A model generated the notes under the pieces. The model worked only from the letters and a program-made list of their open reading frames with translations. It made no database searches and had not been told where the DNA came from. This document shows, piece by piece, positions 11,689 through 31,787 of a DNA stretch of 40,013 nt (its first letter is position 1; every line of letters begins with the position of its first letter). Source of the stretch: Prevotella sp. (GTDB lineage: Bacteria > Bacteroidota > Bacteroidia > Bacteroidales > Bacteroidaceae); contig JAGCZA010000061.1 in NCBI GenBank assembly GCA_017960525.1, positions 1-40,013 of the forward strand, given 5' to 3'. A program made the translations under genes and the position numbers.

Positions 11689-11720
11689 CAAAATTACACT
11701 TTTCCCGCAAACTGAACAAA
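11689..11720 (-). promoter_or_regulatory. leuA promoter
   Basis: TTTG (11720-11717), a 20-base spacer and TAATTTTG (11696-11689) on the minus strand. The leader to the ATG is about 55-60 bases, and I see neither a Leu-rich leader peptide nor a T-box in it. Confidence 0.7.
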
Positions 11721-11745: not shown

Positions 11746-11776
11746 TTTGTTGTTTCATTTTTTTTTGTTAATTTTG
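11746..11776 (+). promoter_or_regulatory. Promoter of the seven-gene FAS1/SusCD operon
   Basis: TTTG (11746-11749), a 19-base spacer and TAATTTTG (11769-11776), divergent from the leuA promoter with only 25 bases between the two -33 boxes. It is the only convincing promoter seen for the genes to 29384. Confidence 0.7.
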
Positions 11777-11845
11777 CACGCTGAAACTAAATCTCTACTT
11801 ACCATACTGTTGAAGACAAACTCTAAAACATTAGTTAATAAGAAC

Positions 11846-14782
11846 ATGAAGCAATTCTTTATCTGTCTCACCCTCGTTTTGGCGGGAGTGATGGCCTCTT
11901 GCATTGACAAAAATGAAGAGGTGGATGCGGACAGCAAGCCTACCTGGCTTGGCGAAAGCATCTATGCGGAACTGAAGAATCCCTCTGGGCATGGCCTGCT
12001 GACAGGCACCTTCACGAACTATTTGCGGCTGATTGACGACCTCGGCTATGACGAGGTGCTCTCGCGCACTGGCTCCAAGACGGTGTTCCCTGCCAACGAC
12101 GAGGCCTTTGAGCGTTTCTTCAAGAGTAATGACTGGGGTGTGAGCAGTTACGACCAACTGTCGGAAGCCCAGAAGAAACTGCTCCTCTACTCGTCGATGC
12201 TCGACAACGCCCTGCTGCTGGGCATGCTGCCCAACGTGAGCAACGGCACCAACGAGGTGATGAAGGGGGCAGCCCTGAAACACGCCACCAACGTCAGTAT
12301 CACCGACACGGTGCAGTTCATCGGCGGTTCGGGCAGCACCGAGGTACGCCCCAACGGCATGCCCGCCAACAACCAGTACTGGAAACAGTACTACGAGAAG
12401 GGCATCCACGTGGTGAACGACGCCACCCGACCCATGATGGTCCACCTGACCCGTGAATACATGCTGAACAACGACATCAAAACGGTGGGCGACGAGAGCG
12501 ACTTCGCCATCCTCACCGGCGAGCCTTTCACCGAAGGCACCGCCTACCTCTTCAACGACAAGGTGGTGAACGGCGATGTCACCTGCCAGAACGGCTACAT
12601 CCACCAGATGGAGAACGTGGTGGTGCCTCCCGGCAACATGGCACAGGTGCTGCGCCGCAAGGACAACACGCAGTATTTCAGCCGCATACTGGACTACTTC
12701 GCTGTGCCTTACTACGACGCCACCACCACCCAGAACTACAACGACTGGGCCTTGCAAAACGGTCGCCCGCAGATAGACAGCATCTATCAGGTGCGCTACT
12801 TGAGCCTGCGCTCGCAGGGTGGCGCAGCCCTGAGCAAAGACCCCAATAATAAGGATGTGTCATCGACGCAGATACTGGGCTTCGACCCGGGCTGGAACCA
12901 GTACTACCCCAACGTTGCCCGCGCCGGCAACACCGACGTGTCGATTATGGATATGGCGGCCATCTTCGTGCCCAGCGACCAAGCCATCAAGGACTATTTC
13001 CTGCAAGGTGGCGCTGGTGCCTACCTCCTCGACATCTACGGCAACTACAAGTACGCTGAGAATACGGAGGCCCATCTGGGCGAAAACCTCGACTCGTTGC
13101 ACTCCAAGAACCCGCAGGTGCTCACCTCGTTTGCACGCAACCTGATGCGCGGCACCTTCGCCGGCACCGTGCCCTCGAAGTTTGAGACCATCACCAACGA
13201 TGCCGCCGAACTGCTCGGACTGACCACCAATATGATCAGCCGCACAGCCGACGGCAAGTACGACATCACGATGGCCAACAACGGCGCACTCTACGTGATG
13301 AACGAACTGGTGGCACCCGACGAGTATCAGGCCGTTCTCGCACCCGCCTCGGTCTATCCCGACCTGCGCGTGATGAACTGGGCGGTGCAGGACCGTTCCT
13401 ATCTGGGCGTCGACTTCAAGTACTATCTGCTGGCCATGCGCGCCAACTACGCTTTCTTCATCCCCGAAGACGGCGCTTTCGACCTCTATTATCTCGACCC
13501 CACATCGCTGGCACACCTGAACAACAACCAGGTGGGCACGCAGCGGCCCGACGTGCTCCATTTCTACTACGACGAGAAAGCCAAGTCGCAGCCCTACCTG
13601 AAATGCGAGCGCTTCTACTACGATATGGAGACAGGACAGATAGACACTACCGTGGCTGCCCGTCCGGCTGAAATCTCAACGGTGAAGACGCAACTCATCG
13701 ACATCCTGAACTATCACACCGTGGTGCTGGGCGATGGCGAGCAACTCGGTTCCAACCATTATTATAAGACAAAGCACGGCGGCGAAATCTACGTCGACGG
13801 CAATCATGAGGGCGCCCGCGTCATGTCAGGCGCACAGATTGACAATCCCGACCGCTTCCCCGCCCCCACCATCAAATATGTTTACAACGAGAAGAACGGT
13901 AACGCCTATCGCCTGAGCCGCGTCATCCAGCCGCCGCTGAAGAGCGTCTATGCTGTGCTCAACGAGAATACGCAGTTCACCGACTTCCAGGAAATGTGCA
14001 GCGGATTCGTGCCCGAAATGCTCGAATGGGCCGGCATTCCCAAAGTGAACCCGAAGAACCAGAGCCTGCCCTCGCCACAAGATGCCTACACCATCTTCAC
14101 ACGCGACTACAAACTCGGCTCGAAGGAGACGGCTGAGGCTTGCCTTGACTACAACGTGAAAATGTTCAACACCTACAACTACACGCTCTTCGCACCCGAC
14201 AACGCCGCTATGCAGGAAGCCTTCGCCAACGGCCTGCCCAAGTGGAGCCAAGTGCAGGACCTGTTCGAGAAATGGGCTGAAGTAGACCAGGAAATGATGA
14301 ACGACAGCGAGAAAGCCGAAATGGAGAACGACAAGATAAAGGCCTACTGGATGATTCGCGCCATGCGCGACTTTGTACGCTTCCACTTCGTCACCAGTTC
14401 AGTCTATGCCGACAACAGCATTGAAGGAGGCCGCTACCAGACACTCTCCAGCGACGAACTGGGCGTGGCCAAGGAAGTGGTGCTCAGTGGGGGCAGCGGC
14501 AGCATCAGCGTGAAAGACCTGAAGGACGGACACACCGTCAGTGTAAAGGCAACAGACAGTGGCTCGAAAGTGGTCAACCAGATGACTCGCGACTACTGGT
14601 TCAACACCATAAAGACGGCTGCCTCGGCCATCGAGACATCGTCGTTCTGCGCTGTCCACCAGATTTCAGAACCCCTCTACGGCGATGCCAGCGGACGCTT
14701 CGACACCCAGTGGGCCAGCCGCGCCGCATTCCAGGCTGCACTGAGGAAATACCAGGAACTCAAAGCAAACAACGAACTCTAA
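11846..14782 (+). CDS. Large FAS1 (fasciclin) domain surface lipoprotein, first gene of the operon
   Basis: A 978-residue lipoprotein. The start at 11846 gives MKQFFICLTLVLAGVMASC with a lipobox Cys at 19; the in-frame extension to 11747 lies inside the promoter. The mature end CIDKNEEVDAD is acidic, like the signals that send Bacteroidetes lipoproteins to the cell surface. FAS1-type hallmarks F-x-P-x-D/N-x-A occur four times: VFPANDEAF (about 80), IFVPSDQAI (about 373), FFIPEDGAF (about 535), LFAPDNAAM (about 777). Segments such as NGYIHQMENVVVPP and NGALYVMNELVAP resemble the second FAS1 motif, NGvvHvid. FAS1 domains commonly mediate adhesion or ligand binding. It precedes a SusC gene by 15 bases, so a SusE/F-like partner role is inferred; ligand unknown. 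Confidence 0.82.
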   Translation: MKQFFICLTLVLAGVMASCIDKNEEVDADSKPTWLGESIYAELKNPSGHGLLTGTFTNYLRLIDDLGYDEVLSRTGSKTVFPANDEAFERFFKSNDWGVSSYDQLSEAQKKLLLYSSMLDNALLLGMLPNVSNGTNEVMKGAALKHATNVSITDTVQFIGGSGSTEVRPNGMPANNQYWKQYYEKGIHVVNDATRPMMVHLTREYMLNNDIKTVGDESDFAILTGEPFTEGTAYLFNDKVVNGDVTCQNGYIHQMENVVVPPGNMAQVLRRKDNTQYFSRILDYFAVPYYDATTTQNYNDWALQNGRPQIDSIYQVRYLSLRSQGGAALSKDPNNKDVSSTQILGFDPGWNQYYPNVARAGNTDVSIMDMAAIFVPSDQAIKDYFLQGGAGAYLLDIYGNYKYAENTEAHLGENLDSLHSKNPQVLTSFARNLMRGTFAGTVPSKFETITNDAAELLGLTTNMISRTADGKYDITMANNGALYVMNELVAPDEYQAVLAPASVYPDLRVMNWAVQDRSYLGVDFKYYLLAMRANYAFFIPEDGAFDLYYLDPTSLAHLNNNQVGTQRPDVLHFYYDEKAKSQPYLKCERFYYDMETGQIDTTVAARPAEISTVKTQLIDILNYHTVVLGDGEQLGSNHYYKTKHGGEIYVDGNHEGARVMSGAQIDNPDRFPAPTIKYVYNEKNGNAYRLSRVIQPPLKSVYAVLNENTQFTDFQEMCSGFVPEMLEWAGIPKVNPKNQSLPSPQDAYTIFTRDYKLGSKETAEACLDYNVKMFNTYNYTLFAPDNAAMQEAFANGLPKWSQVQDLFEKWAEVDQEMMNDSEKAEMENDKIKAYWMIRAMRDFVRFHFVTSSVYADNSIEGGRYQTLSSDELGVAKEVVLSGGSGSISVKDLKDGHTVSVKATDSGSKVVNQMTRDYWFNTIKTAASAIETSSFCAVHQISEPLYGDASGRFDTQWASRAAFQAALRKYQELKANNEL

Positions 14783-14797
14783 AGGCATCTTACAACT

Positions 14798-17700
14798 ATG
14801 ACTATAAAGCAAGCATTTACCACAGCCCTGCTATGTGTCGCCACACAACTGGCAATGGCACAGGGCATACGCATATCTGGTACGTTGAGCGATGCCGACG
14901 GCCCTATTATGATGGGTAACGTCACAGAGCGCGATGCCAACAACCGTATTGTGTCGGCCACGCAGACCGACTTCAACGGCAACTTCTCCATGCAGGTGAA
15001 GAGCACCAAGAACAAACTGGTCTTCTCCTACGTGGGCGACAAGGAAAAGGTCATCACCATTGGCAACCAAACCAACTTCAAGGTGAAACTCGACCCCGCC
15101 AACACCCAACTCAAGGAGGTGAAGGTGGTGGGCCGACGTACCAATTCGGGCGGTCTGACCATCCAGAAGAAAGAGATGACCGTCTCCAGCCAGACCATGT
15201 CGATGGAACAGGTGGAAGGTCTCGCCTTCACATCGGCCGACGAGGCCCTGCAAGGTGAAATCGCCGGTCTCGACATTGTCAGCAACTCTGGAAACCTGGG
15301 CGCCGGCACACAGATGCGACTGCGCGGTGTCACCACGCTCTCGGCAAACGCCAACCCCCTCATCGTGGTCGATGACAAGATTTTCGACAACCCCGACGAG
15401 GACTTCGACTATGCCAACGCCGACGAGGAGCAATATTCATCGCTGCTTTCGGTGAACGTGGAGGATATCGCCAGCATCACCGTGCTGAAGGACGCCGCCG
15501 CCACCGCCGTCTGGGGTTCACGCGGTTCCAATGGTGTCATCATGATTACCACCAAGCGCGGTTCACGCGGCAAACCCAAAATCAACTTCTCCTACAAGTT
15601 CACAGGCACTTGGCAGCCCGAAGGCTACAATCTGCTGAACGGTGACGACTACACCATGCTGATGAAGGAGGAGTTCTATAACCCCACCCAGCGCAGCGAC
15701 CGCACCACCAGCATCGCCGAGTTGAACTACGACAAATCGTGGGCTGAGTATGAGAACTGGAACAACAATACCGACTGGGTGGACGCCGTGAAGCAGTTTG
15801 GTGCCATGCATGACTGGAACGTCAACCTGACCGGTGGCGGACAGAAAGCCACTTTCCGTATTTCTGCCGGCTACAAACACCAGACGGGTTCCATCATCGA
15901 ACAGAAGTTCCAGCAGTTCACCACACGTATGGCCCTCGACTACAACGTCAGCGACCGCATACGTTTCATCACCAACTTTGCCCTCACCTACACCAATAAT
16001 AATAAGAACAACGAGAAGAAGGGAAGCATACTGGGCATTGCACAGAACATTGCGCCCAATATGGCCATCTACCGCCAGAATGCTGACGGCAGCGACACGG
16101 GCGAGTACTACCTGATGAACCCATCGGTATCGGGAAGAACACCTTACGACGGTGCCTACTCCAGCGTTGACCTGTCTTCTATAAGAAACTTGGGCAACCC
16201 CGTCGCTATCGCCCACGAAGCCTGGCTGAAAGACCAGACCTACCGCCTGACGCCCGACTTCACCATCAAGTACGAGATTCTTGGCACTGAGGCCGAGAAG
16301 AGCCGACTGACCTTCAACGGCCGCGTGGACTTCGACATCTTTGCAGAGAGCAAGCCCTCTTACTGGCCAGCATCGCTCTCTACCGACAACTGGTCTACTG
16401 CCGATTACAACTCGACCACTAACTACGAGTACAACAGTATGAAGATTGGCGGACGCACCGAGTTGGTGTTCACGCCCTACTTCAAGAACCGCGACTGGTC
16501 GGCCACTATGCTGCTGCGCTACGAAATGAGCACCTCGAAGAACAGCCGCCAGGAGACCAGCATGAGCCATCTGCCCAACGACATCACGTCGCCGACAGTG
16601 GATGCTTATGTGAGCAAGTCGCCCAGTAGTGGCAACGGTCGCTCAAATTCCCAGAACCTTCTTTACAACGGCCACGTCTCCTATCTCGACGGTCGCTATT
16701 CGCTGGGCTTCTCGCTCCGCGCCGACGGCGACTCGAAGTTCGGCCCCAAGAACAAGTGGGCCTACTTCCCCGGTGTGTCAGCCCGATACAACATCATCGA
16801 CGAGCCGTTTATGAAGTGGAGCCGTAGCGTCGTCTCCATGCTCGGCTTCCGTGCCTCATGGGGTATCAACGGTAAGGCACCGGACAAGGACTACCTCTTC
16901 TATAACACCTACAACACATCGGCAGGCAGTTACGGTAAGGGCACCGACGTGGCCAGTTACGCCACCCTCGACGGCCTGAAACTCGACGACCTGCGCTGGG
17001 AGAAGACCACCAGTTACAACCTGGGTGCCAACCTGGGTCTGTGGAACGACAGGATTGAGGTGGACTTCGACTACTACCACAAGAACACCACCGACCTGCT
17101 GCAGGGCATCACCATCCCTTCGATGACGGGTTACACCTCCATCGCCTACGCCAATGTGGGCCGTATGACCAACGACGGATGGGAAATGAACTTCACCGCC
17201 AAGAAATTCATCAGGATTGGCAAGTTCTCGGCCGACTTCAGCATCAACGTGGCACAGAACAGCAACCTCCTCAAGGAAATGGACGAGAGCGTGCTGCAGA
17301 GCATCAACGGCACCACCTGGGATGCCACCCGTCGCGGCAACGCCACCAAGCCTTACGGCTATCCTGTGCGAGTGCAAATCAACAACTCGCTGGGCTCCAT
17401 CTACGGCTTCCGCTATCAGGGCGTCTACAACATGACCTACGACTACTTGCAGAACTACCAGTTGGAGCAGGGCCTCAACGCCACCGAGTACGAGGACTGG
17501 GTGAACGGCCTCATCTCAGGCACCCTGCCCGATGAATGGTACGCACAGCACAAATTGACCAAGCAACCCTATTCGGCTCCAGTGGCTGTGGGCGAGGACG
17601 GCAAGGTGCTGATGACCAATACGGGCGAACCACAGCGCATGGTCTACGACTACAGCGACGGCGCAGCCCGCTACAAGTTCCAGGGCGGCGACGCCAAGTA

Positions 17701-18253
17701 TGAGGACATCAACCACGACGGACAAATCAACGCCCTTGACGTGGTCTATCTGGGCAACTCACTGCCCAAGGTGAACGGCGGTTTCAACCTGACCCTGCGC
17801 TACGGACCGTGGAGCGTCAAGGCACGCTTCAACTACCGCTTCGGCAACAAGGTGGTCAACCTGGCCAGGATGAACCTGGAGTCGATGTACGGCACCAACA
17901 ACCAGAGCACCACGGTGAACTACCGTTGGCGTAAGGACGGTGACGTAACGCCTATGCCACGCGCCATGTACAATGCAGGCTGGAACTTCCAGAGTTCCGA
18001 CCGCTATGTGGAGGACGGCGGTTTCGTGCGCTTCCAGAACCTTCAGGTGGCCTACAACTTCGACCGCAAGATCATCAAGAAGTGGGGTCTGAGCAACTTG
18101 CAGGCCTACGCTTCCATCAACAACCTCTATGTGTGGACCAAGTACAGCGGCACCGACCCCGAAGTCTCGGCAACGGGCTTCTACCCCGCCTTCGACACGG
18201 CCAGGACACCGCGCTCAAAGCAGTTCACGCTCACACTTAACGTAGGTTTCTAA
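14798..18253 (+). CDS. SusC/RagA-type TonB-dependent outer-membrane transporter (first copy)
   Basis: An 1151-residue SusC-like channel. It has signal peptide MTIKQAFTTALLCVATQLAMA, a carboxypeptidase-regulatory-like beta domain (about 25-105, ISGTLSDADGPIMMGNV), then the plug with ALQGEIAGLDIVSNSG (about 147), MRLRGVTTLSANANPLIVVD and the closing signature VLKDAAATAVWGSRGSNG through ITTKRG (about 228-252). The rest is a 22-strand-type barrel ending in the usual terminal Phe (LTLNVGF). A SusC-typical loop DINHDGQINALDVVYLGN is present near 970. It would import a ligand captured by the SusD encoded 40 bases downstream, energised by TonB. The substrate cannot be read from sequence; there are no linked glycoside hydrolases to suggest a glycan. 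Confidence 0.95.
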   Translation: MTIKQAFTTALLCVATQLAMAQGIRISGTLSDADGPIMMGNVTERDANNRIVSATQTDFNGNFSMQVKSTKNKLVFSYVGDKEKVITIGNQTNFKVKLDPANTQLKEVKVVGRRTNSGGLTIQKKEMTVSSQTMSMEQVEGLAFTSADEALQGEIAGLDIVSNSGNLGAGTQMRLRGVTTLSANANPLIVVDDKIFDNPDEDFDYANADEEQYSSLLSVNVEDIASITVLKDAAATAVWGSRGSNGVIMITTKRGSRGKPKINFSYKFTGTWQPEGYNLLNGDDYTMLMKEEFYNPTQRSDRTTSIAELNYDKSWAEYENWNNNTDWVDAVKQFGAMHDWNVNLTGGGQKATFRISAGYKHQTGSIIEQKFQQFTTRMALDYNVSDRIRFITNFALTYTNNNKNNEKKGSILGIAQNIAPNMAIYRQNADGSDTGEYYLMNPSVSGRTPYDGAYSSVDLSSIRNLGNPVAIAHEAWLKDQTYRLTPDFTIKYEILGTEAEKSRLTFNGRVDFDIFAESKPSYWPASLSTDNWSTADYNSTTNYEYNSMKIGGRTELVFTPYFKNRDWSATMLLRYEMSTSKNSRQETSMSHLPNDITSPTVDAYVSKSPSSGNGRSNSQNLLYNGHVSYLDGRYSLGFSLRADGDSKFGPKNKWAYFPGVSARYNIIDEPFMKWSRSVVSMLGFRASWGINGKAPDKDYLFYNTYNTSAGSYGKGTDVASYATLDGLKLDDLRWEKTTSYNLGANLGLWNDRIEVDFDYYHKNTTDLLQGITIPSMTGYTSIAYANVGRMTNDGWEMNFTAKKFIRIGKFSADFSINVAQNSNLLKEMDESVLQSINGTTWDATRRGNATKPYGYPVRVQINNSLGSIYGFRYQGVYNMTYDYLQNYQLEQGLNATEYEDWVNGLISGTLPDEWYAQHKLTKQPYSAPVAVGEDGKVLMTNTGEPQRMVYDYSDGAARYKFQGGDAKYEDINHDGQINALDVVYLGNSLPKVNGGFNLTLRYGPWSVKARFNYRFGNKVVNLARMNLESMYGTNNQSTTVNYRWRKDGDVTPMPRAMYNAGWNFQSSDRYVEDGGFVRFQNLQVAYNFDRKIIKKWGLSNLQAYASINNLYVWTKYSGTDPEVSATGFYPAFDTARTPRSKQFTLTLNVGF

Positions 18254-18293
18254 AGCGGCCTGCGGTCTAATAACAAAGAAAAATAATAGAGAT

Positions 18294-20123
18294 ATGACTA
18301 CCAAGATAACCAATAAATGGATAAAGAGTTTATTCGTTATTCATTTTTCATTATTCATTAGCGTAGCACTCACTTCCTGCCTCGACACCATCATCCTGCC
18401 CGACGACAAGACGGTGGATGAGGACTTCTGGAAGACCAAGGAAGATGTGGCCTCGATGGTGAATGCCGCCTACGCGGGCCTCGTCAACGAGGATGTGATG
18501 ACACGCCTCATCGTGTGGGGCGGCTTCCGCTCCGACGAACTGGTGAAGGGGGCTGTGGCAACAGGCGCCATACCCGATGCACTGGAGGAAATCGCTGCCG
18601 TCAATATGCAGGTGACCAACACTTTTGCCACCTGGGCACCCTTCTACTCGGTCATCAATCGCTGCAATATTGTGCTGGAGCGTGCCGAGGCCGTGATGGA
18701 GGAAGACCCGAACTACACCGAGTCCGACTTCCAGTCAGACCGCTGCCAGATGCTGGCGTTGCGCTCGCTCTGCTACTTCTATCTGGTGCGTAATTTCCGC
18801 GATGTGCCTTACACCACCGAGGCATTTATGAACAGCAGCCAGGAAATGCAGATAGGCCAGTCGTCGCCAGAATATGTACTGGGACAACTCATAGAGACGC
18901 TGGAGCAAGTGATTGCCAACCCCAGTTGCCTGCGCTCTAACAGTTACACCATCAACGAGTGGCGGCGTGTGGGATGGATGACACGCGACGGCGTGCTCTC
19001 GCTCCTGGCCGACATCTATCTGTGGCGTGCATCGGTACTCCACAGCCAGGCCGACTACCAGCGCTGCATAGACATCTGCGAAGAGGTCATTGCCTCGAAA
19101 CGCCAGCAACACGTGCAGGGCCGCAACGAGTTGGAACTGAAAGCCTATCCACTGGAAGACGGGAACAGGGCCTACGGCAACATCTTTGGCGACCAGAACG
19201 CCGAGGAGAGCATCTTCGAGTTGCAGGTGGCCAAGGACAATCCTGCCCTCTGCAAGTACCTCTACAAGTATGGCAGCAACTCGTCGGCAGAAGGATACCT
19301 CAAGGCCAGCCCCATCTTCAGTTCGTCGGCAGGAGCGCCCAACCAGATTACCAACAGCAACGTGTTTGCCGCACAGGATTTGCGCTACTACTCGGCCACG
19401 TTCACTTCAAGCGAAGAAGTCCACGACGTGTGCAAGATGGTATCGTCCAACTCTATCGGAAGCAAAACACAGCCCACACGTGCATCGGCAGACCGCACCT
19501 ACGGCAGTTTCGACCAGAACTACATCGTCTACCGCCTCAGCGACATTATGCTGATGGAGGCAGAGGCCCTGAACCAACTCCTGCGTGATGTCGATGCCAA
19601 TGCCAGCGAAGACGAGACCAAAGAGGCCGAAGCCTTCAACGACAGTCTGAAACAGCAGATGTTCAACTTGGTGGAGGCCGTGAACACCCGTTCACTCCAG
19701 CAGGACGACGTTTCCAGTTATGCGATGAAGTGGGACACCTACAAAGCCTACACCAAAGGTGCCTGGGAGACTTACATCTTGCAGGAGCGCCTGCGCGAAC
19801 TCTGCTTCGAAGGCAAGCGCTGGTACGACCTGCTGCGCTTCAACTACCGCCACACGGAGGGTGTGCAGTACAACCGCACGCTGGGCGAACTTATTGACGA
19901 TGCCGAGGCGGCAAACACCGACGTGATGCTGCCGTCCATCTTCGATGATATGCTCGCCCTGGCCACCAGAGGCCGTCCCTCCGAGGCACAGGCCATCAAG
20001 GCCAAGATGCGCAACGAGGCTTACCTCTATCTGCCCATCCCCAACAGCGACATCAACGTCTGCCCGCTGCTTCGCCAGAACCCGGCCTACAAGAGCGGCA
20101 ATACGTATGAGAAGAATTATTAA
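18294..20123 (+). CDS. SusD/RagB-type surface lipoprotein (first copy)
   Basis: A 609-residue ligand-binding lid for the SusC encoded just upstream. The signal peptide MTTKITNKWIKSLFVIHFSL plus FISVALTSC has a lipobox Cys at 29, and the mature start contains DDKTVDEDFW, a common SusD opening. TPR-like helices follow (NAAYAGLVNEDVMTRLIVWG, RCNIVLERAEAV, RSLCYFYLVRNFRDVPY), with a C-terminal SusD signature LRELCFEGKRWYDLLRFNYR near residue 498. The N-terminal DNA contains runs of ATTCATT simple sequence. Membership is clear; substrate unknown. Confidence 0.94.
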   Translation: MTTKITNKWIKSLFVIHFSLFISVALTSCLDTIILPDDKTVDEDFWKTKEDVASMVNAAYAGLVNEDVMTRLIVWGGFRSDELVKGAVATGAIPDALEEIAAVNMQVTNTFATWAPFYSVINRCNIVLERAEAVMEEDPNYTESDFQSDRCQMLALRSLCYFYLVRNFRDVPYTTEAFMNSSQEMQIGQSSPEYVLGQLIETLEQVIANPSCLRSNSYTINEWRRVGWMTRDGVLSLLADIYLWRASVLHSQADYQRCIDICEEVIASKRQQHVQGRNELELKAYPLEDGNRAYGNIFGDQNAEESIFELQVAKDNPALCKYLYKYGSNSSAEGYLKASPIFSSSAGAPNQITNSNVFAAQDLRYYSATFTSSEEVHDVCKMVSSNSIGSKTQPTRASADRTYGSFDQNYIVYRLSDIMLMEAEALNQLLRDVDANASEDETKEAEAFNDSLKQQMFNLVEAVNTRSLQQDDVSSYAMKWDTYKAYTKGAWETYILQERLRELCFEGKRWYDLLRFNYRHTEGVQYNRTLGELIDDAEAANTDVMLPSIFDDMLALATRGRPSEAQAIKAKMRNEAYLYLPIPNSDINVCPLLRQNPAYKSGNTYEKNY

Positions 20124-20133
20124 AGGAAGGAGG
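20123..20133 (+). promoter_or_regulatory. Purine-rich ribosome binding site deciding the next start
   Basis: AAGGAAGGAGG ends 8 bases before the ATG at 20142. This favours that start over a second in-frame ATG at 20154. Strong Shine-Dalgarno sequences like this are the exception among genes here. Confidence 0.6.
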
Positions 20134-20141
20134 ACACCATT

Positions 20142-22292
20142 ATGAAAAAGTATATGGAAAAAAGCATTGTAGGCCGCATAGGTCTGATAGGGCTGATTGG
20201 TCTTATGGGTCTTTTGGGAAGTTGTAATCCCGAACCAGACGAGAGTGACCTCTTCACCGCTACTGGCGAGACGGCCTGTGACTTCATCAAACGCAAGGCA
20301 GAACTCTCATCGTTTGACTACATACTGAGCCGTGTGCGTCTGGACCGTAACCTCTCCAGTTATGGCGAATACACCTGCTTCGCTCCCACTAACGAGGCTA
20401 TCGCCATCTATTTAGACAGTCTTTGGAACGACCCGGAGGCACCGGTGGCACACAACAGTATGACCGAGAACTCACTGCAGGGTCTCACCGACAGCCTGTG
20501 CAACGACATTGCCAAATACCACTTGGCCAGCGGTGTACACAACACCATCGAAATGGGCGGCAGCGGCTCTACGGTGAACACCATGCTGGGCCGGCCTGTC
20601 CAGACTGAGGGCACGTCGGACTCCATTGGACGTGTCACCTTGGAGAAGGCCGCAGTCATCATCGAGGCCGACAGTCTGGTGACCAACGGCATCGTCCACG
20701 TGCTGAACCGCGTCATTCCGCGCAGCACCCGACTGATTGTCGACGAAATGGAGCGTCATCAGGACTACAGCATCTTCGTGGAAGCACTGAAAATGACAGG
20801 ACTGGCCGACTCGCTCACCAAGGCAAAGAAGAACGTCACCTACACCATCTCTGACATCAAGGACGTCGACGCCAACAAGTCGGACCTCTACCACCCCGAA
20901 GAGTGCAAAGTGATGTACACCATCTTTGCCGAACCCAACGAGGTGCTGGAGAAGAACGGCATCAATAGCATCAACGACCTCATTGCATACGCCAACAATG
21001 TGTATGGCAATGCCGCCGAATGGTATGACTACCTCAACGAGACGGGCAACACCGTGAGCACCGGCAACGACTACACCAACCGCTTCAACGCCCTCAATAT
21101 GTTTGTGGCCTACCATATCCTCTATGCCGGTATGCCACAGAACGAACTCGTGTACGAATACAACTCACGCTGGTCAACCACCTGGAACTACACCAACGGC
21201 TGCCAGCCCTTCGACTACTACGAGACGATGCTCCCCTGCACGCTGATGAAAATCTGGGATGTGACGGGCAACCGCTCGAACAGCAGCCACCAACTCTACA
21301 TCAACCGCTACCGCACCCTCAATACACTCACCGACGAACTGGGAACGGAGACTGCTGCCAATACAGGAGCCTTGGTGAACGAATACGGCATACACGAACT
21401 GGTGTCGCCAGGTGTGCGCATTGCACGTACCACCGACTCAGGCCTCTCGTTTGAGACCAATATCCAAACCTATAACGGCTACATTCACGGTCTGCGAGGC
21501 ATGCTCGTCTATGACCGCCAAGTGCCCAAGGGTGTGCTTCACGAGCGTCTGCGCTTCGACAGCACCACCTTCCTTGTGGAGTTCATCAACAACGGCATCC
21601 GCATGTCCAACAACTCGGAGATGCAGGCGCTCAACGGAGGAGGCAGCGGCAACCGTGTGGCCTTCCCGCTCAACTACTTCGACAATGTGGTGAGTTACAC
21701 GCCGGAGAACCGTTTCCGCTATAACATCAAGGGTGCCTACAACGCCTGGCAGAGCGATACTTTCCAGGGATGGGGCAACTACGACTTGGCCATCAAACTG
21801 CCGCCTCTGCCCACTGGCAGATATGAGTTCCGCGTGTTCTACACGCCTATGAGCCACGGTGGTATGATGCAGTTCTATCTTGGCACGTCCAGGAGTCTCT
21901 CCAGTATGGAGGCGCTCGACATCCCGCTCGACGTGCGCATTCCCATCGACGACCCGCGCATTGGTTCCACCACCTTCTTCGAGGAAGACGACATGGGTAT
22001 TGCCACCGATGCCGCCCTCCGCAACCGTGGCTACATGCGCGGACTGTTCAGTTATCAGGACCACCCAGAGAATCTGGATGGCAGTACCACTATCAACCAG
22101 CGCAGCGACAAGCGCAACGCCTCGCTCAGAAAGGTCTTCAACGTCAGGGAGTTCAAGCAGAGCGACGAACACTGGTTCCGTATCAAGAACGTCATTCAGG
22201 ACGAGACCGACCTGAAGTGGCAGTTCGACTATGTGGAGTTCGTTCCCTACGATGTGGTGAACAACGACACTTACTCAGAGGACTGGTATTGA
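20142..22292 (+). CDS. FAS1-domain surface lipoprotein with C-terminal beta-sandwich-like region
   Basis: A 716-residue lipoprotein whose hydrophobic signal core is four near-identical Ile-Gly-Leu repeats, ending LLGSC (Cys 28) and the acidic NPEPDESD. FAS1 domain 1 (about 45-200) has SSYGEYTCFAPTNEAIAIYL and TNGIVHVLNRVIP, close to the textbook motifs. A second, degenerate FAS1 domain spans about 203-450, with YIHGLRGMLVYDRQVPKGV near its end. From about 480 the sequence is rich in beta-prone stretches (YEFRVFYTPMSHGGMMQFYL) and ends WQFDYVEFVPYDVV, which resembles the closing strand of CBM6-like jelly rolls; that resemblance is tentative. It lies between the first SusD and another FAS1 gene in the same operon. 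A SusE/F-like ligand-binding or adhesive role is inferred. Confidence 0.82.
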   Translation: MKKYMEKSIVGRIGLIGLIGLMGLLGSCNPEPDESDLFTATGETACDFIKRKAELSSFDYILSRVRLDRNLSSYGEYTCFAPTNEAIAIYLDSLWNDPEAPVAHNSMTENSLQGLTDSLCNDIAKYHLASGVHNTIEMGGSGSTVNTMLGRPVQTEGTSDSIGRVTLEKAAVIIEADSLVTNGIVHVLNRVIPRSTRLIVDEMERHQDYSIFVEALKMTGLADSLTKAKKNVTYTISDIKDVDANKSDLYHPEECKVMYTIFAEPNEVLEKNGINSINDLIAYANNVYGNAAEWYDYLNETGNTVSTGNDYTNRFNALNMFVAYHILYAGMPQNELVYEYNSRWSTTWNYTNGCQPFDYYETMLPCTLMKIWDVTGNRSNSSHQLYINRYRTLNTLTDELGTETAANTGALVNEYGIHELVSPGVRIARTTDSGLSFETNIQTYNGYIHGLRGMLVYDRQVPKGVLHERLRFDSTTFLVEFINNGIRMSNNSEMQALNGGGSGNRVAFPLNYFDNVVSYTPENRFRYNIKGAYNAWQSDTFQGWGNYDLAIKLPPLPTGRYEFRVFYTPMSHGGMMQFYLGTSRSLSSMEALDIPLDVRIPIDDPRIGSTTFFEEDDMGIATDAALRNRGYMRGLFSYQDHPENLDGSTTINQRSDKRNASLRKVFNVREFKQSDEHWFRIKNVIQDETDLKWQFDYVEFVPYDVVNNDTYSEDWY
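20178..20213 (+). repeat. Four 9-bp tandem units inside a signal-peptide coding region
   Basis: ATAGGTCTG, ATAGGGCTG, ATTGGTCTT, ATGGGTCTT: four in-frame 9-mers coding I-G-L, I-G-L, I-G-L, M-G-L. Gain or loss of a unit would keep the frame and change only the length of the hydrophobic core. Confidence 0.8.
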
Positions 22293-22329
22293 TTGAAAAA
22301 TGAACTTAGAACTTTGAACTTAGAATAAT

Positions 22330-24072
22330 ATGGAAACCAAGATAAGTAAACTTTTCGTCAGTTGTCTCGTCAGTTGCGCCATCTGTGCAACAACGGGATG
22401 CTCCGACTTCAGCGACTACAACGACACTCCTGTCGACGAGTTGGCCGTGGGCAACCAGACGTTGTGGCAGAACATTGAGCAGAACACACAACTGAAGGGT
22501 TTTGCCGAACTGCTCAAACGCACTGGCTTCGACACCGAACTGACTAACACCCGCGCCTACACCGTGTGGGCACCGCTTGACGGCACCTACGACCTGGCCG
22601 CTTACAAGGCACTCAACGACTCCACCCTGCTCCAGCAGTTTGTCAAGGGCCATGTGGCACAGTACGGACACGTGGCCTCAGGCGAGGTGAACGAGCGCAT
22701 CCACATGCTCAACGAGAAGTCGTTCACCTTCGAGGGCAACGGCACCTACACCTTTGGTGGGGTCAGCGTGAGCAAGCCCAACCAGCCCAGCACCAACGGC
22801 GTGATGCACATACTCAACGGGGCTGCACCTTTCTACTACAACCTCTACGAGTATATTATGTCGAACCCGGAAGACAGTCTGCTGCGCATCTACTTCAAGA
22901 AGTACGAGCAGACCAGGCTCGACACAAAGAACAGCGTGAAAGGCCCCGTCATCGATGGTTTGCAGACCTATATCGACTCCGTGATGGTGACGTCGAACCC
23001 GCTCATCAACACCATTGGAGCAAGGCTCTCTAACGAGGACAGCACCTACACCTTCCTGTTGCCCAACGACAAGGCCTACACCGACCTCTACAACAAGGTG
23101 AAGCCCTACTTCAACTTCATCAACACGACGGTGGTGCAGGACGTAGAGAAGTTCAAGACAGCCACGTCGACCGACACGAAGAGCGTCACCATCGACGCCA
23201 ACTTCCTGAGCGACTCGCTTACCTGCCGCACCATCATCCGCAACCTGGCTTTCAGCAACAACGATGAATACAACAAGTGGCTTGTCGACAAGGGAGAGTT
23301 TACCGACACCATGCGAAGCACCAACCGGACGAAGTTCTCCAACCCGCAAGAGATACTGAGCCACACGGTCAGCAAGCGCAATATGAGCAACGGCTACGCC
23401 CATATTATGGACAGCATCGCCTTCTACCCCTGGGAGACCTATCTGCCAGAGATTAAAGTGTCACCTATAAACTACGCCTATACTGCCGAAAGCCGCTCAC
23501 GCTTCAATTTCTCGTCGCGGATAAATACCGTGAACGACTCGCAGGGCAATGAAATAGATTCATTGCGGCATCTGTGGATTTATCCCACTGGCGACTATGT
23601 AAAGCCGGAAGTGTTCCTTGAACTTCCTAACGTGATGTCGGCCACCTACAAATTCTACTGTGTCTTCGTACCATCGGCAAATGTGCGCGGCTTCGACGGC
23701 AGGCCAAATTGTCTGAACTTCCAGTTGAACTACTGCGGTGCCAACGGCAAGACGGCCACCTACAGTTTCAGTTCGAAATATCTGGCCAGTGGGGCTACCG
23801 CCGATGAGAACCCCAAGTCGGTGAACATCAATACGGCTTTTGAAAACGACCCGACGAAGGTTGACACCGTCTACCTGGGCCAGTTCACCTTCCCCGTGGC
23901 CTACAATGGACTGGGTAGTGCACAGGACGGATACAACCCCAATCTGCACATCAGTTGTCCCGTCAGCGTCTTCAACAAGACGCAGATGGCCACGTACACC
24001 CGCGACGTGAGAATCATTGCAATTCTTATGAAGCCCGTAGACCTTGTTGAATTTGAAGAAAACCAGAAATGA
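22330..24072 (+). CDS. Third FAS1-domain surface lipoprotein of the operon
   Basis: A 580-residue lipoprotein with signal METKISKLFVSCLVSCAICA and TTGC (lipobox Cys 24), followed by acidic SDFSDYNDTPVDE. FAS1 domain 1 (about 40-170) has TRAYTVWAPLDGTYDLAAY and STNGVMHILNGAAPFYYNLY. Domain 2 (about 200-380) has STYTFLLPNDKAYTDLY and GYAHIMDSIAFYP. The last 200 residues (VFLELPNVMSATYKFYCVFV onward) are beta-rich and parallel in position the C-terminal region of the preceding FAS1 protein. The stop overlaps the ATG of the next SusC gene by four bases, implying coupled translation and shared function. Its signal peptide is strikingly like that of the second SusD. Confidence 0.82.
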   Translation: METKISKLFVSCLVSCAICATTGCSDFSDYNDTPVDELAVGNQTLWQNIEQNTQLKGFAELLKRTGFDTELTNTRAYTVWAPLDGTYDLAAYKALNDSTLLQQFVKGHVAQYGHVASGEVNERIHMLNEKSFTFEGNGTYTFGGVSVSKPNQPSTNGVMHILNGAAPFYYNLYEYIMSNPEDSLLRIYFKKYEQTRLDTKNSVKGPVIDGLQTYIDSVMVTSNPLINTIGARLSNEDSTYTFLLPNDKAYTDLYNKVKPYFNFINTTVVQDVEKFKTATSTDTKSVTIDANFLSDSLTCRTIIRNLAFSNNDEYNKWLVDKGEFTDTMRSTNRTKFSNPQEILSHTVSKRNMSNGYAHIMDSIAFYPWETYLPEIKVSPINYAYTAESRSRFNFSSRINTVNDSQGNEIDSLRHLWIYPTGDYVKPEVFLELPNVMSATYKFYCVFVPSANVRGFDGRPNCLNFQLNYCGANGKTATYSFSSKYLASGATADENPKSVNINTAFENDPTKVDTVYLGQFTFPVAYNGLGSAQDGYNPNLHISCPVSVFNKTQMATYTRDVRIIAILMKPVDLVEFEENQK

Positions 24073-27000
24073 AAATGAAGAGCACCATATTTAATCTTGG
24101 GCAGACAGCCAGTTGGAGACTGCTGTTCTGCACACTCGCCTTGGGATTGTTCACCCTTCCAGCCCTGGCCCAGAGCGAAGACGAAGAAGAAGAGGAAGTG
24201 GAGACGGCCATCAAGCAGCCACAGCGCAAGACGGCCCAAGCCACCTATCCCACTGTGACGCTCAATGGCATCGTGACCGACCAGGCCACCGGCAAGCCCC
24301 TTTCGGGTATACAACTCCAGACACTGGGCTATGTGCGCTATACGGCCATGACCGATGAGGACGGCACTTTCAGCATCGCCGTGCCAACGTTTGCCACCGC
24401 ACTCTACGTGCATGCACCGGAGTACGCCTCGCAACAGGTGGCCATCAATGCCGATGCCCCCGAACAACTCATCACCATCAAGATGCTGAAAGACAAGTTC
24501 CAGCCCATGTACGGCAAGGGAACCGACTACACAGCCAAGGGTGAGGCCCAGATAGACCGTTTCGGCGTGACTGTCGACAATGAGATTTCGGCAAAACTGG
24601 CCGGCGATATGCACACCATTATGCGCTCGGCAGCCCTCGACGGCGGTGCTGCCATGTTCATTCGCGGACTGAACAGCATCAATGCCGACGCCCAGCCGCT
24701 CATCGTCGTCGATGGTATAGAGATGGATATGCAGCGCGACCGCTACTCGCTGCACGACGGTCAGTTCAACAATATGCTGGCCAACATCGCCCCTGACGAC
24801 ATCGAGAAGGTGACGGTGCTCAAGAATGCCACCGCCCTCTATGGTGCACGCGGTGCTAACGGCGTGGTGCTCATCGAGACCAAGCGCGGCCATTCTATGG
24901 CCACCCGCATCGATGCTAACATCTCGGCTGGCGTAACGCTGGTGCCGAAACTGCCCACGCTGATGAATGCAGCCCAATATCGTACCTACGCCACGGAAAT
25001 GCTGGGCACCATCGACGGCATTATGGAGAAGCAGATAGACTTCCGCTTCCTCAACGACGACTCCGAAGGCTACTATTACTACACCTACCACAACAACACC
25101 GACTGGAGCGACTACGTCTACGACAATGCTATGACGCAGAACTACAGCATCAACGTGCAGGGTGGTGACGACATTGGTATGTACAACCTCTCCGTGGGTT
25201 ATGTCGATGCCAAGTATGCAGCCAAGAAGAACTCGTTCAACCGAATGAACGTGCGTTTCAATACCGACATCAGCATCCTCTACAACCTGAAGACGAAGTT
25301 CGACATCAGCATTTCGCGCACCAACAACGACGTGCTCGACAACGGTATGCCCGAAGACTTCGGCGCTGGCACGGTAGTGTCGCCCATTGCTTTGGCTATG
25401 ATTAAGTCGCCGCTGGTGGCTCCCTACCAGTATAATTCGTTGCTCAACGACGGGCAGGGCGGCTTCTCATCGCTCTACTCCGATGCCGACGACCTGTTCT
25501 ACCAACTCTACAACACCCACACCTACGATTTGGCAAACCCTGCCTCCATCCTCGACTACGCCCACGGCGACAACAAGAACAAGGCAGAGAACACCTACTT
25601 CAACGTGCACGTGGCACCTGAATATGAGATTAGCCCCAGCCTGAAACTCAAGGCTCTGGTCAGTTATACCCTCGACCGCAACTCGCAGCGCTATTTCCGT
25701 CCCGTCACCAACGTGCCGTCGTTCAACATCGCCGGTATGGGCCGTGTCTATGCCAAGACCCAGGTGATGTTTGCCAAGGAGAACAACTTCCTGGGCAATC
25801 TGGAGGCAGACTGGAACCACCAGTTTGGCGCACACACGCTGGCCGCCTTTGCTGGCGTGCGTTACAACACATTCACTTTCGACAGCAGCGACACTTCCGT
25901 GCAGCACAGTTCTGCCTCCACCAGCGACAAGAACCCCTCACTCGGCGACGCCGGCTACCGCACCATCCGTGGTGCCAACGACGAGTGGCGGCAGATGCAG
26001 TGGTACGGCAACGTGGACTACAACTATATGAACCGCTACTTCGCCACCCTTTCGCTGCTTGGCGAGGCCAACAGCCGCTTTGGCGAGAACGCCGACGGTC
26101 TCAGCCTCTTCGGCGTGAAGTGGGCCATCTTCCCCAGCGTGCAGTTGGGTTGGGTGATGACCAACGAGAAATGGTTCCCCAAGAACGCGGGCATCAACTA
26201 TCTGCGCCTCAACGCTGGCTTCGACATCAGCGGCAACGACGGCATCAGCAACTATGCCGCACGCACCAGTTACACCACCGTGCGTTACAACTATGACGCC
26301 ATCGGCACACAACTCACCAACGTGGGCAACGACAAGATTCAGTGGGAGTCGACCAAGAAGTTGAACATCGGCCTGCAGAGTTATATGCTGAACAACCGTC
26401 TGGGCGTGAAGTTCGACTACTTCATCCATAACACCGACAATCTGCTCACCTTGAAGTCGTTCACCACCCCCATCGGCGGCATCAACCGCTACTGGAGCAA
26501 CGGCGGCAAACTGCAGAACCAGGGCTTCGAGGCCACTGTCACTATGAAGCCCGTCGTGCTCAAGGACTGGAGCGTGGAACTGGGCGCCAGCGTGGGCCAC
26601 TATAAGAACAAGGTGAAGAAACTACCCGACGGCAACTACACCACGTCGGCATACGGCGAAGACAATATCCTTACCTCGGAGAACAACCCCGTGGCACTCT
26701 TCTACGGCTACAAGACCGCCGGCGTGCTGGCCGACGACGCCGCCGCACGTGCCGCCGGCAAAGGCACTTACCTCTATATGGAAGACAACGCCGGCATCCG
26801 CCACGACTTCCGTGCAGGCGATGTCTGCTTCGTCGACCTGAACAACGACGGCAAGATTTCCGAGGCCGACAAGACCATCATCGGCGACCCCAACCCCGAC
26901 ATCTACGGCAACATCTTCGCTATGGTGAACTGGAAGAACCTGACGCTCAACATCGGCTTCAACTACTCGCTGGGCAACGATGTGTTTAACTACCAGCGCT

Positions 27001-27389
27001 CCATCCTCAACGCCGGTTCCAACTTCTACAACCAGCAGGTGGCCGAAGTGGGACGCTGGCACTACGAAGGACAGCAAACCGACATCCCCCGTGCCACCTT
27101 CGGCGACCCGATGGGCAACAACCGCTTCAGCGACCGCTGGATTGAGGACGGCAGTTACCTGCGCCTGAAGACCGTATCGCTGAGTTACCGCGTGCCTATC
27201 CCCGGCTCGTGGACCTGGCTGCAGGGACTCACCATCTGGGCCGAGGGTCAGAACTTGCTCACCTTCACCAAGTACTTAGGCAACGACCCGGAGTTCTCCG
27301 CTGGTACAAGTGTATTCTACCAAGGCATCGATGCCGGCAACCTGGCACACAGCCGCACCTTCACTGCCGGACTGAAGATTAATCTCTAA
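24069..27389 (+). CDS. SusC/RagA-type TonB-dependent outer-membrane transporter (second copy)
   Basis: An 1106-residue SusC-like protein. After a signal peptide ending LFTLPALAQ it has an unusual acidic run SEDEEEEEVE, then a carboxypeptidase-like domain (VTLNGIVTDQATGKPLSGIQ, about 60-140) and a plug with MFIRGLNSINADAQPLIVVD (about 197) and VLKNATALYGARGANGVVL through IETKRG (about 252-277). The barrel runs to a C-terminal TAGLKINL rather than ending in Phe. Family length and motif order are normal. By eye the plug and linker differ substantially from the first SusC here, so this is a distinct transporter, not a recent duplicate. Coupled by ATGA overlap to the FAS1 gene upstream and followed 21 bases later by its SusD. 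Confidence 0.95.
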   Translation: MKMKSTIFNLGQTASWRLLFCTLALGLFTLPALAQSEDEEEEEVETAIKQPQRKTAQATYPTVTLNGIVTDQATGKPLSGIQLQTLGYVRYTAMTDEDGTFSIAVPTFATALYVHAPEYASQQVAINADAPEQLITIKMLKDKFQPMYGKGTDYTAKGEAQIDRFGVTVDNEISAKLAGDMHTIMRSAALDGGAAMFIRGLNSINADAQPLIVVDGIEMDMQRDRYSLHDGQFNNMLANIAPDDIEKVTVLKNATALYGARGANGVVLIETKRGHSMATRIDANISAGVTLVPKLPTLMNAAQYRTYATEMLGTIDGIMEKQIDFRFLNDDSEGYYYYTYHNNTDWSDYVYDNAMTQNYSINVQGGDDIGMYNLSVGYVDAKYAAKKNSFNRMNVRFNTDISILYNLKTKFDISISRTNNDVLDNGMPEDFGAGTVVSPIALAMIKSPLVAPYQYNSLLNDGQGGFSSLYSDADDLFYQLYNTHTYDLANPASILDYAHGDNKNKAENTYFNVHVAPEYEISPSLKLKALVSYTLDRNSQRYFRPVTNVPSFNIAGMGRVYAKTQVMFAKENNFLGNLEADWNHQFGAHTLAAFAGVRYNTFTFDSSDTSVQHSSASTSDKNPSLGDAGYRTIRGANDEWRQMQWYGNVDYNYMNRYFATLSLLGEANSRFGENADGLSLFGVKWAIFPSVQLGWVMTNEKWFPKNAGINYLRLNAGFDISGNDGISNYAARTSYTTVRYNYDAIGTQLTNVGNDKIQWESTKKLNIGLQSYMLNNRLGVKFDYFIHNTDNLLTLKSFTTPIGGINRYWSNGGKLQNQGFEATVTMKPVVLKDWSVELGASVGHYKNKVKKLPDGNYTTSAYGEDNILTSENNPVALFYGYKTAGVLADDAAARAAGKGTYLYMEDNAGIRHDFRAGDVCFVDLNNDGKISEADKTIIGDPNPDIYGNIFAMVNWKNLTLNIGFNYSLGNDVFNYQRSILNAGSNFYNQQVAEVGRWHYEGQQTDIPRATFGDPMGNNRFSDRWIEDGSYLRLKTVSLSYRVPIPGSWTWLQGLTIWAEGQNLLTFTKYLGNDPEFSAGTSVFYQGIDAGNLAHSRTFTAGLKINL

Positions 27390-27410
27390 TATAGTAAATA
27401 GTGAATAGTT

Positions 27411-29384
27411 ATGATTACAAACATAAGCAAATACATTAGCGGTTGTCTCGTTGGCTGCGCTATCTGTGCAACTCTCACGGTCTCCACTTCCTGCTCCGAT
27501 ATGATTGAGACCGAGAGCACCCGCCAGAACATTGATCCGGAAATCACATCGAAGACCGACTCCCTGTTCTACGCCTTCGGCATCCTCCAGGCTATGCAGC
27601 AACTGGCCGACCAGTATGTGTTCCAGGGTGAAATGCGCGGCGACCTGTTGAAGACCACCGACTATACCGACAACAATCTGCGGCAGTTGGCCAACTTCTC
27701 GGCCACCACGGCTAACAAGTACGACTCGGCCTACGTCTACTACCGCGTCATCAACAACTGCAACTACTATATTGCCCATCGCGACACTGCCCTCTACACC
27801 GGAGCCACCAATGTGGTCTTGCCTGAATATGCTGGTGTCAAGGCCATCCGCGCCTGGGCCTATCTGCAGTTGGGGCGCAACTACGAGCGCGTGCCATTCT
27901 TCACCGAGCCGCTCACACAGATCTCCCAAATCGACGGCAACTCGTTCCCCGAACTGGACCTCGCCGGCATAGTGGCACAGCTGGCTCCCGACCTGGAGCG
28001 CTACAGCGGCTACGCCACGCCCAACTACGGCACCACCAGCGGCCACAACATCGGATCCCCCAACTGGGAGAGCCAGCAGAAATCGTATGTGCCCAGCCTC
28101 TGCTTCATCCCTGTCGATGTCATTTTGGGCGATATGTATCTGGAGACACAGCAGTTCGACCTTGCTGCCAAGCACTTCATCACCTACCTGACCAAGGTGG
28201 CCACGAGAGTCTACAGCCCCTATCTGGCTCCGATGGCGTCGAAGTACATCGGCTCAGGCCGTATGGGTGCCATTGTCGATGCTGACCTGCCAGATGCCAG
28301 CTCGATTGCCGTTATGGTGACTTCCACACCCTCCTGGTCAGGCATCTTCGACCGCAACTCCACCACCGACATCATCAGCTACATCCCTATGGCGGTCAAT
28401 AGCCAGAACGGAGCCACCACCAATGTGCCCCTCACTTTCGGCTTCAACTACTATGCCACCAACGAGGAACTGAGTGCCAACGGCAACACCAACCCTTACA
28501 TCGACGAGGTACAACTGCTGCCCAGTAGCGCACTCAACACACTGAGCGACTCTACGGAGTATTACATCTACTTCGACAACAAGACGGGCGACAGGTTTGA
28601 CAGCATCCAAGCTTCAAAGGCCGGCGACATGCGCCTGCGCAGCATCATCCACCAGACGCTCGTCGACGACTCCACCCATCAATGGATTGACAAGTACAAG
28701 TATGCCAATATCGTGCTCTACCGCACCAGTACCGTGCTGCTCCACCTGGCCGAAGCCTTCAACCGCCTGGGTATGTACGACGCCGCCTTTGCCATCCTGA
28801 AGGACGGTATCAGCGACAAGCTGCTTGAACGGAACAGCGACGGCACCTACAACGTTACTTACATCAAAGACGACACCCGCCTGAAGCTGCAGACCACCTA
28901 TCCCATGCTCTCCGAAGAGAATATCAACAAGTTTGAATCAGTAAGCACCGATGCGACTGGCAGGAATATGGTGAATGCCATCTACGGCATACACAGCCAC
29001 GGGGCAGGCACGCCCACCAGCGACTATCCTGGCGTCAATGTCACATACGGCACCGCCTACCACGCCGGCACGTCGCCCTATCAACTCGACCGCATGGCTG
29101 GCCTAAAGATGGAGGAGATAGCCAAGCAGTTCAATATCAACGTGGGCACCACCAAGCAGGACACCATCAACGCCATTGAAGACCTGCTCTGCGACGAGTA
29201 CGCCCTGGAACTGGCCTTCGAGGGCAACCGCTTCTACGACCTGGCCCGACTGGCCCGCCACAAGAACGCCGCCGCCCTCTATGGTGGCAACTTCGGCAGC
29301 CTCTGGTTCGCCCGCAAACTTGCCGCCAACAAGCCGGTGAAAGACCTCACCAACCCCCAGAACTGGTATCTACCATTCAAGTAG
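27411..29384 (+). CDS. SusD/RagB-type surface lipoprotein (second copy)
   Basis: A 657-residue SusD-like protein. Signal MITNISKYISGCLVGCAICA leads to a lipobox TSC (Cys 28), then SDMIETESTRQN. SusD features include FQGEMRGDLLKTTDYTDNNL, YRVINNCNYYIAHRD, VKAIRAWAYLQLGRNYERVP and the C-terminal ELAFEGNRFYDLARLARHK near residue 602. It is the last gene of the operon; a hairpin at 29444-29484 follows. Pairs with the second SusC by position. Substrate unknown. Confidence 0.94.
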   Translation: MITNISKYISGCLVGCAICATLTVSTSCSDMIETESTRQNIDPEITSKTDSLFYAFGILQAMQQLADQYVFQGEMRGDLLKTTDYTDNNLRQLANFSATTANKYDSAYVYYRVINNCNYYIAHRDTALYTGATNVVLPEYAGVKAIRAWAYLQLGRNYERVPFFTEPLTQISQIDGNSFPELDLAGIVAQLAPDLERYSGYATPNYGTTSGHNIGSPNWESQQKSYVPSLCFIPVDVILGDMYLETQQFDLAAKHFITYLTKVATRVYSPYLAPMASKYIGSGRMGAIVDADLPDASSIAVMVTSTPSWSGIFDRNSTTDIISYIPMAVNSQNGATTNVPLTFGFNYYATNEELSANGNTNPYIDEVQLLPSSALNTLSDSTEYYIYFDNKTGDRFDSIQASKAGDMRLRSIIHQTLVDDSTHQWIDKYKYANIVLYRTSTVLLHLAEAFNRLGMYDAAFAILKDGISDKLLERNSDGTYNVTYIKDDTRLKLQTTYPMLSEENINKFESVSTDATGRNMVNAIYGIHSHGAGTPTSDYPGVNVTYGTAYHAGTSPYQLDRMAGLKMEEIAKQFNINVGTTKQDTINAIEDLLCDEYALELAFEGNRFYDLARLARHKNAAALYGGNFGSLWFARKLAANKPVKDLTNPQNWYLPFK

Positions 29385-29443
29385 GTCCATCCGACCTGCT
29401 GAATTGGCCGTACCTTTTTATGGGTTTGTCGGCATCATCAAAC

Positions 29444-29484
29444 AAATCCTCGACGTGGAATGTTAAAAACCGCGTTGAGGATTT
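29444..29484 (+). terminator. Hairpin after the FAS1/SusCD operon
   Basis: AAATCCTCGACGTG (29444-29457) and CGCGTTGAGGATTT (29471-29484) can pair over all 14 positions as RNA, counting two G-U pairs, around a 13-base loop. Only a short T-run follows. It lies 60 bases past the second SusD stop. Confidence 0.55.
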
Positions 29485-31730: not shown

Positions 31731-31787
31731 TAACCGTTAAATAACAACTTGGTACATTTTTTTTGTTTTTTCTTAAACATTGATAAA

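Follow-up and report, generated by a model that had tools for sequence, protein, structure and literature searches.

The window analysed here is a stretch of 40,013 nucleotides from a Prevotella sp. genome, and its positions 11746-29484 form one operon. Seven intact open reading frames (ORFs) in the same direction fill this region in the order FAS1A-SusC1-SusD1-FAS1B-FAS1C-SusC2-SusD2. This FAS1-containing dual-transporter cassette is a conserved and widespread seven-gene family, and related genomes often hold several copies of it. We read the window operon as an enzyme-less yet selectively maintained copy of a conserved cassette for pectin capture and import, apparently orthologous to cassettes that are embedded among PL11 rhamnogalacturonan lyase genes in some relatives. 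It is probably the outer-membrane part of a system for uptake of plant cell-wall glycans, with rhamnogalacturonan I (RG-I)-type pectin as the most likely ligand. We infer that the FAS1 proteins capture the glycan, that the SusC/SusD (SusCD) pairs import it and that enzymes are supplied in trans from other loci.

The operon and its boundaries

The family assignments are clear. Fasciclin (Pfam PF02469) scores above its curated cut-off in all three FAS1 proteins (genes 1, 4 and 5), SusC/RagA TIGR04056 in genes 2 and 6 and SusD_RagB (PF07980) in genes 3 and 7. Both pairs therefore have the composition of a SusCD-type uptake system, that is, a SusC/RagA TonB-dependent transporter with an adjacent SusD lipoprotein. 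From gene 1 to gene 7 the intergenic gaps are 15, 40, 18, 37, -4 and 21 bp, and the likeliest start of FAS1A is the ATG at 11846. The ORF coordinates and the family matches agree with the original prediction of one seven-gene unit with gaps of at most 40 bp and a single ATGA overlap. The prediction had also proposed a single transcription unit that ends at a hairpin, and the pattern scan fits this proposal. The pattern TTTG-N17-23-TAnnTTTG, which we take to be the Bacteroidetes promoter motif, has 7 matches in the window, where shuffled sequences give an expectation of 0.27. One match stands at the start of the operon [Table 1] and none lies inside it; another, on the opposite strand, is located at 11689-11720, and a further match (29812-29842) lies ahead of the gene that follows the operon. 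The hairpin at the end lacks a clean T run and is not listed by an E. coli-style terminator scan. Of 111 surveyed loci, 38 have the promoter pattern no more than 400 bp before FAS1A, whereas cassette bodies totalling 1.48 Mb contain it only 14 times.

Between promoter and hairpin, the ORFs and Pfam matches reveal no glycan-degrading or other enzyme gene, and the enzymes of a complete polysaccharide utilization locus (PUL) are thus missing, as was first noted. Nor does the operon contain a peptidase gene, as might be looked for in a RagAB-like importer. A linked regulator of the hybrid two-component (HTCS), AraC or extracytoplasmic function (ECF) type is likewise absent from the window, in keeping with the expectation that the operon has no dedicated regulator; the scan returned just a sub-threshold AraC-like fragment that overlaps the hairpin [Table 1]. 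A tblastn comparison of this frame with a cassette-linked HTCS gave an E value of 0.011 in a tiny database. The fragment is possibly, on weak grounds, a relic of a linked regulator. According to the flank scans, HTCS genes are located near several other cassettes.

Table 1. Features of the operon, with positions in the window
Feature	Position	Strand	Description and evidence
Promoter, Bacteroidetes type	11746..11776	+	TTTG-N19-TAATTTTG; pattern scan
FAS1A	11846..14782	+	978-aa lipoprotein; two Pfam FAS1 stretches, PF02469 E 6.8e-15
SusC1	14798..18253	+	TonB-dependent outer-membrane transporter; TIGR04056 E 3.2e-198
SusD1	18294..20123	+	lipoprotein lid of SusC1; PF07980 E 6e-18, PF14322
FAS1B	20142..22292	+	lipoprotein; PF02469; two FAS1 domains and C-terminal CBM-like beta-sandwich predicted by model
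FAS1C	22330..24072	+	lipoprotein; PF02469; two FAS1 domains and C-terminal CBM-like beta-sandwich predicted by model
SusC2	24069..27389	+	second, distinct TonB-dependent transporter; TIGR04056 E 1.6e-171; ATGA overlap with FAS1C
SusD2	27411..29384	+	lipoprotein lid of SusC2; PF07980 E 2.4e-10
AraC-like frame	29403..29636	+	open frame of 78 codons, similar to the last part of an AraC-type DNA-binding domain; HTH_AraC E 0.0033, below the Pfam cut-off
Hairpin	29444..29484	+	probable terminator or 3' end of operon; 15-bp perfect stem, RNA fold z -5.1

Conservation, copies and linkage

The FAS1A profile finds 408 relatives in a public collection of genomes. The best 80 were retained; the listed titles are metagenome-assembled genomes of Prevotella, Prevotellaceae, Bacteroidaceae or Bacteroidales, and many carry ruminant host names. 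At E<=1e-10, 206 of the 301 genomes sampled within the family match the profile, in 18 of 30 genera. Of the 22 listed genomes of the same genus, five have a match, and across the order 19 of 295 sampled genomes have one, some of the matches being weak; both counts include the source genome. As far as the sequence reaches, the canonical gene order is present in 106 of 114 FAS1A-centred loci, 27 of which show all seven genes while 79 are cut off where the data end. Of the eight remaining loci, two carry FAS1B twice, two have an ORF that is split, three lack FAS1B between SusD1 and FAS1C and one is rearranged. The combination of two transporters with three FAS1 proteins had been called unusual; given the FAS1A profile matches in about two-thirds of the family genomes sampled and the gene order shared by 106 of 114 loci, this description does not hold. 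Two FAS1B genes stand in succession in the cassettes L056 and L061. At another site (L100 and L101, G108:C7) two cassettes lie back to back, separated by an additional FAS1A gene and a gene for a hybrid two-component regulator.

The source genome (3.97 Mb, 146 contigs) contains 11 FAS1 domain matches, all within five loci. In addition to the window operon, there are three further complete seven-gene copies (contig C6, ~75-91 kb; C65, ~17-35 kb; C13, ~89-105 kb) and a strongly diverged fifth cassette with the same gene order, also on C6; the genome total is four cassettes plus the divergent fifth. Together the five account for 10 of the 18 SusC-family genes that score above the cut-off. Between copies, SusC1 proteins are 44-64% identical (three compared), SusC2 proteins 43-61%, and FAS1 proteins of one position ~26-46%. 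Comparison of SusC1 with SusC2 gives 22-26% over long alignments. The SusC1 of the window itself is 45-46% identical to the SusC1 of two sister cassettes and ~22-24% identical to SusC2. The copies match position by position and SusC1 is unlike SusC2; the cassette has thus multiplied as a unit containing two dissimilar transporters.

The original prediction named, as an observation that would overturn it, independent occurrence of the two halves without conserved linkage. To the contrary, SusC1 and SusC2 were searched separately in 15 genomes, and of the 58 genes of the SusC2 type (39% or more identical to the window SusC2), 55 are preceded on the same strand by a distinct gene of the SusC1 type, usually at a distance of 8.6-9.7 kb. 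The unpaired genes, three of the SusC2 type and four of the SusC1 type, all belong to one fragmented assembly, and in each case the contig ends before the place of the partner. The same genomes hold 161 FAS1 matches. The 149 that were listed comprise 120 inside or adjacent to canonical cassettes, 12 of the diverged type, 8 beside those contig-end fragments and 9 elsewhere; of these nine, 8 come from one genome. In G378 (contigs C7, C24, C36, C49, C65 and C86), eight FAS1 matches are found outside the counted cassettes, and several of the frames are ~735-763 aa long.

Substrate, mechanism and alternative readings

The genes that flank related cassettes suggest a substrate. Pfam scans covered 76 flanking proteins (80 scanned, minus three cassette proteins and a window fragment); their families point to plant cell walls, and housekeeping genes are also present. 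In the fifth cassette of the source genome a PL11 gene follows SusD2 after 27 bp. Window-type cassettes of two other genomes lie among several such genes on both sides: four PL11 genes together with GH115 and an AXE1/GDSL esterase in G598, and three PL11 genes together with GH106 and a Reg_prop/AraC regulator in G597. These two neighbourhoods argue against the earlier idea of a ligand that needs no degradation, while outer-membrane capture and import, with enzymes encoded elsewhere, remains the inferred function. In upstream flanks of at most 10 kb before FAS1A, 18 of 80 loci contain PL11, whereas the PL11 density in ten of the surveyed genomes predicts ~1.6. In the SusC1 tree the window groups with L023 and then with L028, and L028 is one of these 18 loci. 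Among close relatives, PL11 is found in three of nine downstream flanks of ~15 kb each (G598, G597 and G600) and in two of six upstream flanks. Moreover, in genus g2, perhaps Bacteroides, the cassette of G548 has divergent GH28 and PL11 genes beside it, and in G621 PL11 (matched by a custom HMM) starts 9 bp after SusD2. Proteins of ~1200 aa without a Pfam match also recur beside cassettes (L103:5483-9064, L126:12739-16347, L137:627-4256, L139:9638-13231, L140:2-3628 and others); several are related to each other and end in similar short tails.

All five lipoproteins carry acidic residues behind the lipobox Cys, as had been pointed out and as the translations directly confirm (CIDKNEEVD, CLDTIILPD, CNPEPDESD, CSDFSDYND and CSDMIETES). 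In the surveyed loci a lipobox was detected in 95/114 FAS1A, 103/108 SusD1, 86/103 FAS1B, 91/101 FAS1C and 27/29 SusD2 proteins, and the mean number of acidic residues at +2 to +9 ranges from 1.55 (SusD1) to 3.05 (FAS1B) against a background of 1.00; the lipobox finder sometimes picked an earlier Cys. This feature is consistent with a surface location. For FAS1B and FAS1C, Pfam recognizes one FAS1 domain each, and the AlphaFold models (pLDDT 85.5 and 87.2) add a second, followed by a C-terminal beta-sandwich at approximately residues 467-703 and 371-572, respectively. The FAS1C sandwich matches MiXBM, CBM35, CBM22, CBM36 and CBM6 structures, and that of FAS1B matches MiXBM. FAS1B and FAS1C, each with a predicted domain resembling a carbohydrate-binding module (CBM), stand in the slot of surface glycan-binding proteins.

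On the pectin reading, the three FAS1 lipoproteins would act as surface glycan-binding proteins that capture pectic chains at the cell surface. In FAS1B and FAS1C the pair of FAS1 domains would carry the CBM-like domain outwards. Lyases and other enzymes from other loci would cut the captured chains in trans, and the two SusCD pairs would import the resulting oligosaccharides in a TonB-dependent manner. That enzymes are encoded elsewhere, as was proposed, is suggested by ten PL11 matches in the source genome; these merge to seven genes, of which one belongs to the divergent fifth cassette. If the levan and dextran utilisomes (PMC7618045) are a guide, the lipoproteins may sit on the rim of SusC. 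Two proteins of the source genome, a PL11 lyase (L012:1620-5141) and an FG-GAP protein (L018:8209-12153), terminate in dockerin-like domains, a hint of surface enzymes held on a scaffold.

Several observations weigh against the pectin reading. No PL11 or other glycan-degrading enzyme gene lies in or beside the window operon, none of the examined flanks of the nearest relative (L023 in G592) contains PL11, and the upstream flank lacks it in 62 of the 80 loci. The beta-sandwich has further matches to proteins that do not bind sugar, for example domains of Cry toxin, laminin and Eph receptor. FAS1 domains are best known from animal adhesion proteins, and the surface location is read from sequence. 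The cassettes of other clades adjoin GH2, GH10, GH30-like, GH35, GH43, GH67, GH95 or GH115 genes, and this variety suggests that the family is not for RG-I alone and seems to serve several plant glycans. In addition, a 2026 paper gives a Bacteroides thetaiotaomicron PUL that includes BT_4163-BT_4165, part of the locus used for comparison below, as one of unknown substrate (PMC13088901).

The same machine might instead serve another plant cell-wall glycan, such as arabinogalactan, glucuronoxylan or a decorated side chain, with duplicated cassettes that specialise on different substructures. The GH67, GH10, GH43, GH95, GH115 and GH30-like genes beside the cassettes of other clades speak for it, as does the presence of four to five diverged copies within a single genome; we nevertheless regard it as rather unlikely for the window copy, since PL11 is enriched in the loci most like it, though in a minority of them. 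An importer of proteins or peptides, or an adhesion machine (RagAB-like, or attaching to cells or matrix through FAS1), is less probable still. The top structural matches of the FAS1 domains are TGFBIp and periostin, the PDB relatives of SusC include RagA, and a Met-zincin peptidase gene (31749-34289; DUF4953/5117/5118) is encoded nearby, but this gene lies 2.3 kb past the hairpin and behind a new promoter. Moreover, the 76 flanking proteins include one clear peptidase (C10) and one esterase that also matches Peptidase_S9, against many glycan-active families. Least probable of all, with only a very slight chance in our estimate, is the reading of the operon as the decaying remnant of a pectin locus stripped of its enzymes and regulator. 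The lack of enzymes and the AraC-like fragment would fit such a history; however, all seven ORFs, the promoter and the hairpin are intact, and dN/dS between the window and its nearest relative is 0.10-0.24 for the six genes measured, which places the enzyme-less copy under purifying selection and argues that it is not simply decaying.

The pectin reading can be extended, although we would sooner doubt than endorse the extension. Both transporters and the three FAS1 lipoproteins would form one obligate mixed outer-membrane complex (a hetero-utilisome), in which the paired FAS1 domains would serve as arms for the binding domains. Rumen Prevotella would multiply this enzyme-free unit, which would share the products of lyases encoded elsewhere. 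The two unlike transporters may stay together for one of two reasons, either two substrate classes or such a mixed complex. What appeared as a single odd operon belongs to a seven-gene family that is conserved, can be aligned position by position and has a probable substrate. By this example, SusCD loci lacking enzymes may not have to remain orphans, since orthologues that have enzymes may reveal the substrate.

Upstream of the operon, on the opposite strand, are leuA- and clpB-like genes (translations judged by eye), and the nearest relative, G592, has leuA- and clpB-like genes upstream as well. The downstream neighbours encode a Fumble/BadF-type protein, a TraB family protein, the Met-zincin peptidase and a fucose-pyrophosphorylase/GHMP-kinase protein, with no glycan hydrolases among them. 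The gene for the last of these, a fusion (34299-37094), follows close behind the Met-zincin gene. Further upstream, positions 4855-7293 encode an 813-aa YARHG and DUF3160 protein in a run that also includes a thioredoxin-like DUF4369 protein.

Comparison with known systems

In the open-licence literature of PubMed Central we found no description of the FAS1-containing dual-transporter cassette and almost nothing on FAS1 proteins next to SusCD. A partial exception is a figure legend in which a FAS1 protein is drawn in a SusD-bearing locus of Gramella PULs (PMC4891872). The arabinan PUL of B. thetaiotaomicron (BT0348-BT0369) resembles the window in having two SusC/SusD pairs in one locus, but its enzymes are in the locus and FAS1 proteins are unmentioned in the available part of the source (PMC8002723). 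In the levan and dextran utilisomes of B. thetaiotaomicron, which consist of SusCD, a surface glycan-binding protein and a surface enzyme, lipoproteins encoded beside SusCD associate stably with it at the surface, and the complexes hold a single SusCD type in two copies (PMC7618045). The window likewise encodes lipoproteins beside SusCD; it differs in that it combines two SusCD types with three FAS1 proteins and no enzyme, whereas the utilisomes have one SusCD type and a surface hydrolase.

A close parallel is the RG-I PUL of B. thetaiotaomicron (BT4145-BT4183). Its core (BT4164-BT4170) has two SusC/SusD pairs, BT4164/BT4165 and BT4168/BT4169, as well as BT4167, which is reported to bind RG-I, and BT4170, a surface lyase (PMC8002723). 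Another study treats BT4164 as the RG-I SusC (PMC5061871), and a mutant of the HTCS regulator of the locus, BT4178, grew to 58.5% of wild type on RG-I (PMC3243724). By gene number, the succession SusC-SusD, two genes, SusC-SusD and then a lyase is the layout of the fifth cassette with its PL11 gene, and the window likewise has two SusCD pairs flanking two further genes. In contrast, the window copy has no adjoining PL11, which is present in the fifth cassette and upstream in 18 of 80 relatives, it is related only distantly to that fifth cassette, and it carries neither enzymes nor HTCS; the likeness is drawn from gene numbers and not from FAS1 content. The system is a variant of SusCD glycan uptake rather than a new category.

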